Positions 7,333 through 12,204 of a stretch of DNA of 35,561 nt are shown here, piece by piece. Made by a program: the position numbers and the translations under genes. How positions within the stretch are numbered: the first letter of the stretch is position 1; the number at the start of each line of letters is the position of its first letter. The stretch is from positions 1-35,561 of the forward strand of contig JAHJAU010000068.1 of assembly GCA_018813785.1 (NCBI GenBank), written 5' to 3'. A model generated the notes under the pieces. It was not told the DNA's origin. It saw only the letters and a list, made by a program, of their open reading frames with translations, and did not search any database. Origin of the DNA: Patescibacteria group bacterium (GTDB lineage Bacteria; Patescibacteriota; Patescibacteriia; SG8-24).

Positions 7333-8712
7333 ATGGGTAATTTGAACACTTTTGACGTGGCGATAGTTGGTACTGGTCCGGCCGGAATGTTTGCTGCTCT
7401 GGAATTGATAGATATTAATCCGGAAATTCGGATTGTGATGTTTGAACAGGGTCCGGTTAGACCAAAAGGTGACAGGGATAATATTACTTCCGGTTGGGGT
7501 GGCGCTGGTGCTTTTTCAGACGGGAAATTAGATTTGGGCTCGTGCGTGGGCGGTACCATCGGGCAATGTATCGGTGAGGAGCAGTTTCGTGAGCTGATGG
7601 CGTATGTTGACTCACGTTATTTGGAGTTTGGTGGACGACCGGATATCGTTGATGCCCAGGCCAATCCCGAAACCTGGTCCAAGGTTTTGGATTTGCGTCG
7701 CCGGGCATTATCGTCACATTTGGATTTGGCCTATTTTCCAATTAGACACCTGGGCACTGATACGGCCTACACCATTGTTGAAAATATCCGGCATTATCTT
7801 CTGGCGCGTGGCGTGGTGATTCTTTCTAATTGTCCGATTGTTGAGTTGCGACCCGAGCATTTTGGTTTATCGGTTGTAACCGAACAAGGTGAAGTGGTAG
7901 CAGCGAGTTATGTATTGGCTGCTCCGGGTCGAAGTGGGGCAGACTGGTTCGCTGGCGAGGCGCGTCGTTTGGGTTTGAGATTAAAGAATAACGGAATAGA
8001 TATTGGTGTTCGGGTTGAAACAAGAAATGATGTTCTGAAAGAGATAACCGATCTTTTATATGAAGCCAAGCTGTATTGTGAATCGAGTCGCGGTGATCGC
8101 GTGCGAACTTTTTGCATGTGCCCCGGTGGATATGTAGCTACGGAAGATTATCGTGGTTTAAGAACAGTGAACGGTCATTCTTATAAAGATAAGAAGAGTG
8201 ACAATGTAAATTTTGCAGTGCTAGTGACACAGATTTTTACTGAACCATTTGATGACTCACTTGGTTATGGCAAGCATATTTCAAAACTGGCGAATCAGCT
8301 GGCTGGTGGAGGAGTGTTGGTACAGCGCTTAGGTGATCTGCGCGATGGTCGTCGATCCAAAGAAGAAAAAATGCGTACCTGGATGGTCCAGCCCACACTC
8401 ACACCACCCCAGGCGATACCCGGTGATTTGGGTCTGGCCATTCCTCATCGTCATCTCGAAGGCATTGTTGATATGCTTGACGCCATGGAGTCGATTGCGC
8501 CGGGCATCGCTTCCAAACACACCTTGCTCTATGGAATCGAAGTAAAATTTTATTCGAATCAAGTGGAGGTCAACGAGCAAACATTTGAGACGGCTCTGCC
8601 AGGATTGTATGTAGCTGGCGACGGTTCAGGCTATACCCGCGGTTTATTACAGGCTTCAATGAATGGTGTGTTGGTTGCTCAGGATATAATACGGAAATAT
8701 GGTTGTGAGTGA
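7333..8712 (+). CDS. FAD-dependent dehydrogenase (COG2509-like)
   Basis: FDVAIVGTGPAGMFAALEL dinucleotide-binding motif, GWGGAGAFSDGKL, C-terminal GLYVAGDGSGYTRGLLQASMNGVLVAQ. The internal ATG at 7333 is preferred over 7267. Confidence 0.85.
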   Translation: MGNLNTFDVAIVGTGPAGMFAALELIDINPEIRIVMFEQGPVRPKGDRDNITSGWGGAGAFSDGKLDLGSCVGGTIGQCIGEEQFRELMAYVDSRYLEFGGRPDIVDAQANPETWSKVLDLRRRALSSHLDLAYFPIRHLGTDTAYTIVENIRHYLLARGVVILSNCPIVELRPEHFGLSVVTEQGEVVAASYVLAAPGRSGADWFAGEARRLGLRLKNNGIDIGVRVETRNDVLKEITDLLYEAKLYCESSRGDRVRTFCMCPGGYVATEDYRGLRTVNGHSYKDKKSDNVNFAVLVTQIFTEPFDDSLGYGKHISKLANQLAGGGVLVQRLGDLRDGRRSKEEKMRTWMVQPTLTPPQAIPGDLGLAIPHRHLEGIVDMLDAMESIAPGIASKHTLLYGIEVKFYSNQVEVNEQTFETALPGLYVAGDGSGYTRGLLQASMNGVLVAQDIIRKYGCE

Positions 8713-9438: not shown

Positions 9439-10035
9439 ATGGAAGATCTTTCTAGGTATTCGACTGAAGAGCTGCAGGCTGAGTTGGCTCGACGTGGGCA
9501 AACAGAGCGAGAGCAGCCAGTCGGCGCTGACTGGTATTATTTGCCAATCGAAGATGACGAGAGTGTTTTTATCGGCCTTGTCCATCGTCGATTTTGGCAT
9601 CGACATCATTCACTGCGGGATCAGCACATTTCGCGATTGGTCAAATTACCTCCAGGATTTGCCGAGGTCATGGAATCTCGTTTCGAGCACAACGGAAGTT
9701 ATGAAGAAGCTTGTCGGTTACTCGAGTATTTGGGTTATCGGCCGGCTCCAATCGGTGGCGGTCTAGTGGTACACATCACAGAGATCGCCGGCAGGCGTAT
9801 GCGAGTTGATTGCATCTGCGATACCGATGAGCAGCGCGCCATATTTGACAGCCACAGTAAGACACGAAGAGGTTTCCATAACGAGGCCGAGTATCGGCGG
9901 TGGATTGAGTCGCTCGTTCCGGGAACTGTGCTGGAAATTTATCCCGATCGATATGAAAGTGGTTTCAGTGCCTGTTTGATGAATCGAACTTTGGCTAAAT
10001 CATTACCTCCACACCCAGAGGGAATCCGGGATTAG
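9439..10035 (+). CDS. hypothetical protein
   Basis: 198-aa ORF with SD aaggagga upstream and hairpin plus T-run downstream (about 10050-10080). Confidence 0.65.
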   Translation: MEDLSRYSTEELQAELARRGQTEREQPVGADWYYLPIEDDESVFIGLVHRRFWHRHHSLRDQHISRLVKLPPGFAEVMESRFEHNGSYEEACRLLEYLGYRPAPIGGGLVVHITEIAGRRMRVDCICDTDEQRAIFDSHSKTRRGFHNEAEYRRWIESLVPGTVLEIYPDRYESGFSACLMNRTLAKSLPPHPEGIRD

Positions 10036-10171
10036 ATATTGTCTTGAATATCAGCATCGAGTTTTTATACTCGGTGTTTTTTAACCCCTCAAAAATAAAA
10101 GTAAAGTTGTGAGTTAAAGCGGTCAGAGAAGTATTTTTTGTAATTAGAAAAAATAAAAAATGTTGAAATTT

Positions 10172-10380
10172 TAAAGGCGCCCCTGTTGCGTTGGGGGCGC
10201 CTGATGTAGAGAAAGAGTTAATAGAAAGGCATTTTACCACCTTCCTTTCTTGATTTCTCCGGGGATCGACTCTTCGTCGTCGAGAACCCCGGGCCGCGGC
10301 CATTAAGCTCAAACAATGAGGGATTGAGGGGCTGTCTCCGTTAGCCCCATACCCAGTACCCAGCTAAAGAACTTATCGTA
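10172..10380 (-). ncRNA. candidate small structured RNA (four hairpins)
   Basis: Promoter at 10387-10415 followed by hairpins at 10328-10348, 10259-10292, 10223-10250 and 10175-10202. No ORF over 5 codons is evident on this strand. Confidence 0.5.
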
Positions 10381-10386
10381 CAAAAC

Positions 10387-10415
10387 ACTATAACAGATCT
10401 GGACAATATTGTCAA
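10387..10415 (-). promoter_or_regulatory. sigma70-like promoter TTGACA-N17-TATAGT
   Basis: Reverse strand TTGACA(10415-10410) atattgtccagatctgt TATAGT(10392-10387). Confidence 0.7.
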
Positions 10416-10584
10416 GAGTTATTGACAGAATTAATAGCTTGAACTTCGGAACCCCCAGCATCATCACCAACATCATTCGTACGTTGTTACTTAGATCATT
10501 TTTAGTTGAAATCAAAACACCCTGTGTCTACAGAGTGTTTTATACTTTCATCATCGAGTTTTTTCTAATTCAGAAATATACCAG

Positions 10585-11586
10585 TTATAGTTTGGGGCGC
10601 CTGACATCACCGGGGTCTCTGTTTGATTCATAACCTCTGGTTTGCGGTAGTCTTTTGACGTCGGGCAATTTCTCGGACTTAAGTAAGGCATCATATTCTT
10701 TATCGGCCCGAACAAAGTTATTCCAGGCCACACGGAATCCCGGGCGGATCATTTTCGCAGCGTGTTTAACTTTAGACCAGGAAGAGGTTAGCAGACCTCG
10801 CGCGTATTCATCAGCGTCACTGATGCCATATTTACGAGCCAAACGCTCTCGGGATTTTTTGGCTGTCTCAGCTAAATCTTGCAGACGATCTGATTCGAGC
10901 AATTGTTGATATTGTTCAAAACCAGCCCGTTCTGACATTTGTGGCGCTTGGGCAGATTCAGCGTTAATCGATTCAGCTACTTTTTGTCGTTCCAATTCAG
11001 CTTCTTGTTCTTGAGCTTCTGCTTGTTGAGCTTCTTTTTCATACTCAGGCTCAACTATAATTGACGCCTCTTCTTGATGCTTTTCTTTATTGCTGTGACG
11101 TTCACGCTCAACCTCTTCAATCTCTCGACGAACTTTCTCCAAGCCTTCTTCACCCAGTAAGGTAGCCGCTTCTTGCTCGCGTTGTCTCATTTCATTTAAT
11201 TTTTTTTGTCGCTGAACAGCTTCTTTAGCTTCAGCCTTATATCCCTGAACTCGTTCCCAACGTTCTGTCGCGGCGATTGCTTCTTTTAGATTACTCTCTT
11301 TGGCTCGATCTTGTGCTTGCTTTAATTCCGGATCAGACTCGATAATTTCCTGTATTGTCGCTTCATAGGTATCAGGAGTAGTAGCAGCGGCAGCTATAAT
11401 TTCAGCGCTGTTATTTGGAGTATCAGCCAGGTTTTGATTAGCCAAAGCTTCCTTGGCAGCCTTAGTTACATTTTCGAACCTTTCTTCTTTGTCGCGCTTG
11501 GCAGCGCGGAATTCTTTGATTTTTCTTTGAGTTTCCTCCGACTGTTTTTTAATGTCGTCTGGTACGTTACTCATAGTTTCACCCAT
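10585..11586 (-). CDS. hypothetical Glu/Ala/Gln-rich coiled-coil protein
   Basis: 333 aa with long charged helices. C-terminal SDADEYARGLLTSSWSKVKHAAKMIRPGFRVAW resembles the neighbour at 11761-12204. Confidence 0.7.
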   Translation of the reverse strand: MGETMSNVPDDIKKQSEETQRKIKEFRAAKRDKEERFENVTKAAKEALANQNLADTPNNSAEIIAAAATTPDTYEATIQEIIESDPELKQAQDRAKESNLKEAIAATERWERVQGYKAEAKEAVQRQKKLNEMRQREQEAATLLGEEGLEKVRREIEEVERERHSNKEKHQEEASIIVEPEYEKEAQQAEAQEQEAELERQKVAESINAESAQAPQMSERAGFEQYQQLLESDRLQDLAETAKKSRERLARKYGISDADEYARGLLTSSWSKVKHAAKMIRPGFRVAWNNFVRADKEYDALLKSEKLPDVKRLPQTRGYESNRDPGDVRRPKL

Positions 11587-11760: not shown

Positions 11761-12204
11761 TCAGCTCCAAGCCGTTCGATAACGGCTACTGCTGGCCATT
11801 TTCCCAAAGTGTCTTAGCTTTTTTTCGAAACCGCGCCAACCGGTCATGGATTTAGCACAAGCATCAGCATCGCTGGTTTTAGGATCCAGCGTATTTATGT
11901 AAACGCTTCTTTCCGCATCTAAAAACGCCTGCTGTTCAGCCATTTCTTGAACAGCCTTGGCTGCTTTTTCTTGTTCTATTTTAGCACTGGTTTCAGCAAT
12001 AATTCTTTCTGCCCAACTCATTTCACCCGCTTCTTTTCTTTTTTGCGCTTCAGCTACAGCTTGCTGTACCGCATCTTCAATGTTTTCTTTTAGCGTCGGT
12101 ACACTTTCAAACTCCTCACGAGCTAACCTAGTCCGTTCTTTAAAGTCTTCATCAGTAAATTGATCTGGAAGATTTGGGTATCGCTCTCCATGACCTGATC
12201 GCAT
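11761..12204 (-). CDS. hypothetical protein sharing a C-terminal motif with 10585-11586
   Basis: SDADACAKSMTGWRGFEKKLRHFGKMASSSRYRTAW aligns with the neighbour, and the ORF stops immediately after it. Confidence 0.6.
   Translation of the reverse strand: MRSGHGERYPNLPDQFTDEDFKERTRLAREEFESVPTLKENIEDAVQQAVAEAQKRKEAGEMSWAERIIAETSAKIEQEKAAKAVQEMAEQQAFLDAERSVYINTLDPKTSDADACAKSMTGWRGFEKKLRHFGKMASSSRYRTAWS

Follow-up and report, generated by a model that had tools for sequence, protein, structure and literature searches.

The window, a 35,561-nucleotide stretch of DNA from a Patescibacteria group bacterium, contains two convergent genes, 9439-10035 (+) and 10585-11586 (-), with a candidate RNA between them on the minus strand. 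The RNA is preceded by a promoter at 10387-10415 (-), with the -35 TTGACA starting at 10415 and TATAGTG at 10392-10386. The 17-nt spacer before TATAGT closes with TG and one base, giving an extended -10, and the promoter scan scored the whole at 11 out of 12. The genome, of 1.19 Mb, has two exact occurrences of TTGACAN14-15TGNTATAGTG (12 across 13 genomes), and the reversed control gave no match in the same search. The promoter is therefore exceptional and above chance.

The gene upstream, 10585-11586 (-), is followed on its 3' side by an inverted repeat, AAAACACTCTG/CACAGGGTGTTTT (10514-10541, -), which is probably a terminator that sets this gene apart from the RNA. At the other end of the RNA, hairpin 4 (10175-10202, -) is a 9-bp GC stem, AGGCGCCCC/GGGGCGCCT, of -19.1 kcal/mol with a 10-nt loop, and is a probable intrinsic terminator. 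A stem as long as this was found in only 5 of 1,000 shuffles, which puts it above chance. The preliminary description had also taken it as a possible terminator, but its U tail is weak (UUUAAAAUUU) and a simple terminator scan did not call it, the loop being longer than 8 and the Ts few. That the RNA forms a transcription unit of its own is a well-supported prediction, given its strong promoter, the terminator-like repeat at 10541-10514 behind the upstream gene and the final 9-bp GC stem. The preliminary description had proposed a standalone sRNA in this convergent setting. The setting holds and the sequence supports a separate unit, with a recognisable promoter and a terminator whose U tail is weak, but a noncoding role in trans now seems less likely. 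The gene 10585-11586 (-) and its neighbour 11761-12204 (-) form a tandem pair 5' of the RNA; both are orphan and rich in Glu, Lys and Ala, neither has a PHROG match, and Pfam gave sub-cutoff matches for the second only.

Every piece named in the preliminary description, from TTGACA-N17-TATAGT through the four hairpins that follow it on the minus strand, was found in place, although single-sequence folding alters two of the hairpins. GGGGCT/AGCCCC (10348-10328) sits inside a rod closed by UAAGUUC/GAGCUUA, making a longer arm at 10304-10375 (-). Hairpin 2, CCGGGG..TCGAC/GTCGA..CCCCGG, lies at 10259-10292 (-). Hairpin 3 (AGAAAGG..CCTTTCT, 10223-10250, -) is shifted in register in the MFE structure, where AGGAAGGUG pairs with UGCCUUUCU, and is predicted to mask a Shine-Dalgarno sequence (SD) and part of a start codon. 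The fold beats shuffled sequences only modestly. The z score of the whole 211-221 nt is about -2.6 to -2.7, weakening to -1.6 to -1.7 once the terminal stem is removed, and among 211-nt segments drawn at random from the window, 8.6% have a z of -2.7 or lower. A strict count gives two perfect stems of at least 6 bp, which 66 of 1,000 shuffles match; apart from the 9-bp terminal stem, the hairpins taken together are not clearly above chance.

The SD match is exceptional and is the strongest part of the observation. The extended SD AGAAAGGAAGGTGG (10237-10250, -) pairs with GGATCACCTCCTTTCT of the 16S tail and leaves a single base bulged, bearing out the earlier claim of a near-full complement with one extra base. 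Its binding energy, calculated against the 16S tail of relatives as the assembly lacks the genome's own, is -19.2 kcal/mol, ranking first among the sequences upstream of 1,024 ATGs in the window. Seven of eight neighbouring ORF starts have no clear SD. The preliminary description had called for comparison with the genome's own 16S 3' end; a search of the genome found no 16S gene, but the tail of relatives, GGATCACCTCCTTTCTA, fits the SD. Nine relatives in the class have this tail, and eight of the nine belong to the same order; in a tenth, which is from a different family of the class, the sequence is CTTTCAA.

The core of the SD lies 7 nt 5' of an ORF of four codons, ATGCCTTTCTATTAA (ATG-CCT-TTC-TAT-TAA, encoding MPFY; 10218-10232, -), which the preliminary description had also noted. 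The sequence thus places an SD at what would be a working distance before the start of a few-codon ORF. Because of this spacing we read it as a translation start rather than as a contact with the ribosome in trans, and the earlier idea that the RNA contacts the anti-SD is not favoured over an ordinary ribosome-binding site. The other earlier idea, that the RNA hides an SD, agrees with the folding, which predicts an unpaired probability of about zero for the SD core. Within the ORF, CCTTTCTA is identical to the end of the 16S tail, and would therefore pair with the SD and mask it. We rejected a longer ORF of 105 aa, 9995-10312 (-), in which an internal GTG falls within the SD: this ORF crosses the terminator stem, runs antisense into the convergent gene, has no spaced SD and matches nothing in Pfam or PHROG. 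An attenuator was also rejected, there being no gene downstream on the same strand.

We searched widely for relatives of the RNA. Rfam release 15 gave no match at gathering threshold in the window, and at permissive thresholds all matches scored far below gathering and lay on the + strand. ARAGORN and the tmRNA model RF00023 found no tRNA or tmRNA in the window; the genome's tmRNA match is on another contig (G000:C81:7686-7974). The models for 6S RNA (RF00013) and the bacterial small SRP RNA (RF00169) matched nothing in the window or the whole genome at E<=1, while their controls were detected. The assembly is 97% complete, MAG assemblies being incomplete, and these two models neither explain the RNA nor place such RNAs elsewhere in it. 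No Rfam family or housekeeping RNA thus accounts for the RNA, in line with the earlier impression that it lacked the hallmarks of tmRNA, RNase P, SRP and 6S.

BLASTN against 57 genomes of the class returned the locus itself, the second promoter copy in the same genome and short weak matches, but no homologue; beyond the locus itself, that promoter was the sole match with E <0.01. A single-sequence covariance model (R1) run on the same 57 genomes matched itself alone. Plasmids gave no match, nor did phages, which were searched with the RNA as part of a longer query. The pattern of hairpin 3 plus the mini-ORF had one exact match in IMG/VR, viral and in an unrelated context, and six scattered exact matches in GTDB contigs, from unrelated organisms, that we take as chance. 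Of the two flanking genes, 9439-10035 has a single relative (G002, 46%); for 10585-11586 there is a partial one that is clear (G007, 34%), besides a weak match on contig C75 of its own genome. The sequence read next to these contains nothing that recognisably resembles the RNA. No homologues with covariation were therefore found among the 57 class genomes, plasmids and phages, and by these searches the candidate RNA is an orphan, seen in one genome only. Conservation in relatives had been set in the preliminary description as the test that could refute a functional RNA; it returned no homologue at all, and any function is putative. The literature searched yielded no small-RNA study of this small-genome lineage.

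Taken together, the locus probably encodes a short transcript under a strong promoter, in which the ribosome-binding site of a four-residue ORF is genuine but hidden by folding. We tentatively prefer, at somewhat less than an even chance, to see it as an independent, lineage-specific transcript of minigene type with a masked translation start for MPFY. The very strong extended -10 promoter would produce a transcript of ~210 nt, starting at about 10380, ending at the GC hairpin at 10175 and folding as a row of hairpins. The only functional site recognised in it would be the translation-initiation region, the extended SD 7 nt before the AUG followed by the MPFY ORF. This region would be mostly closed, since CCU-UUC-U in the ORF repeats the 16S tail and so pairs with the SD. 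The RNA would act in cis, a 30S subunit that opened the hairpin starting translation and then stopping almost at once. The computed basis of this picture is the promoter, the strength and placement of the SD, its predicted masking and the absence of homologues; transcription, termination, ribosome loading and any regulatory effect are what we infer. The reading draws further support from the other exact promoter copy, which precedes a covarying structured RNA, and from the units with this promoter in the family, most of which read as a leader, a start codon and an ORF. Against it count the lack of any homologue that could show selection on the ORF or the fold, a fold that beats shuffles only modestly, and the weak U tail of the terminator. 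A more elaborate version, an abundant lineage-specific RNA whose ORF masks its own SD by copying the 16S 3' tail (CCTTTCTA), serving not as a protein message but as a minigene or a ribosome trap that can be switched, seems to us improbable.

The minigene-type transcript has partial parallels in known systems. The two-codon minigene mg2 of the axe-txe operon lies upstream of the toxin gene and acts on it in cis (PMC8708949). Both are few-codon ORFs with their own start region inside a short leader-like RNA, but the candidate is followed only by a terminator-like stem and a convergent gene, with no downstream gene on the same strand, and its SD is masked. Bacterial sRNAs carrying short ORFs have been surveyed (PMC5521070). 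They too are short independent transcripts with a possible coding region, but the surveyed ORFs are of 10-50 amino acids, a range above the candidate's four codons, and the candidate lacks conservation. Like tmRNA (RF00023), the candidate would be a short ribosome-engaging RNA with a short reading frame, but it has no Rfam match and the tmRNA match of this genome is on C81. With 6S and the small SRP RNA it would share being short, highly transcribed and structured, but neither model matches in the window.

The reading we rank next, though we think it rather doubtful, is that the locus is the remnant of a small-protein gene, its promoter, leader, SD and terminator kept and its ORF cut to four codons by a deletion or a new stop. 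Units with the same promoter in the family mostly read as a leader, a start codon and an ORF, a minority reading as noncoding, and one of them, in G002, has an ORF of ~34 codons followed by a hairpin, the same architecture as the candidate. The orphan status of the RNA also fits a remnant. An undecayed promoter and a near-perfect SD would be odd in a relic, however, and the 15 nt between stop codon and terminator stem hold no recognisable protein remnant.

Somewhat less probable again, and in our view unlikely, is a purely noncoding sRNA acting in trans, in which the stretch resembling an SD decoys or contacts the 16S 3' end, or is there by coincidence. The strong promoter, the several hairpins and the terminator-like end are what such an RNA would have, and the complementarity to the 16S tail reaches AGAAAGG. 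But the SD has the right spacing to an ATG, which makes a trans-acting RNA that contacts the anti-SD less likely, and it is base-paired in the fold; the RNA is not conserved and its fold z is modest. It is very unlikely that there is no functional RNA here, only a chance or decayed intergenic promoter-like site with hairpins: the RNA is an orphan, its hairpin count is unexceptional and 8.6% of the segments from the window fold equally well, but chance would have to bring a near-unique promoter, the window's best SD and a 9-bp GC stem together in the right order and spacing. We therefore prefer the minigene-type transcript, followed by the gene relic, the noncoding sRNA and lastly chance.

The second exact copy of the extended promoter in the genome lies upstream of a covarying structured RNA. 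This copy is outside the window (G000:C13:7712-7741) and precedes two tandem RNAs of ~190 nt each, at G000:C13:7290-7481 and 7498-7692 (-) (L068, L051). Each has a long closing stem with conserved AUGGAGG-GGGA / UCCGUCUCCA, an apical UNCG-type loop and a four-way junction, and the first copy folds with a z of -7.96, the second with one of -3.78. A model built from four copies gave matches in 11 of the 57 genomes, the RNA often occurring in pairs. In an alignment of 15 copies, which was fitted to the model and so leans towards the modelled structure, 91.3% of cells pair and 39 of 51 pairs have changed on both sides; neither the 500 shuffles nor any slid version came near the observed covariation. 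With the refined model, and no more than six candidates scored in each genome, 28 of the 381 genomes of the class gave a match at E<=1e-4. Further loci include G007:C1, G009:C28, G005:C13, G006:C3, G002:C31, G004:C16 and G008:C2, with G001:C25, G011:C75, G040:C2, G333:C1, G102:C24 and others.

In most genomes of the family a strong promoter lies 40-80 nt upstream of the RNA. The RNA is near glyS in several of these genomes, with frr upstream in some, and adjoins rpoB in two more distant genomes, these genes being named by inspecting translations and not by family search. Rfam gave no match on L036 and L037 or on eight further loci, and by the records scanned this is apparently an undescribed conserved family. 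We considered whether the RNA in the window might be a diverged copy and rejected this: the best match of the family model R2 in window positions 9800-10800 was 8.7 bits over 34 bases on the + strand, and the RNA is not a member.

Other strong-promoter units showed features of their own. L053 (G005:C6) and L060 (G002:C63) have a common leader hairpin, with ATACCTCCTCCTTATCC / ATATCTCCTCCTTATCC in the loop, just 3' of the promoter at locus position 1501 and before ORFs resembling secreted proteins. The CCTCC in this hairpin resembles an anti-SD string, and the hairpin is a possible conserved cis element. L049 (G001:C11) has a unit under a strong promoter, from locus position 1501 on, with CAGGATCCAGTAACGCGGTTATTTAGCCTGATAACGGA twice, a terminator and no obvious ORF.

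Transcription of the RNA in the window would mean that a small-genome lineage has a short RNA at high expression, and would offer a clean way to test how ribosomes behave on a masked four-codon ORF. The more valuable result is the use of its rare promoter as a pointer, which led to a strongly covarying RNA family in related genomes.
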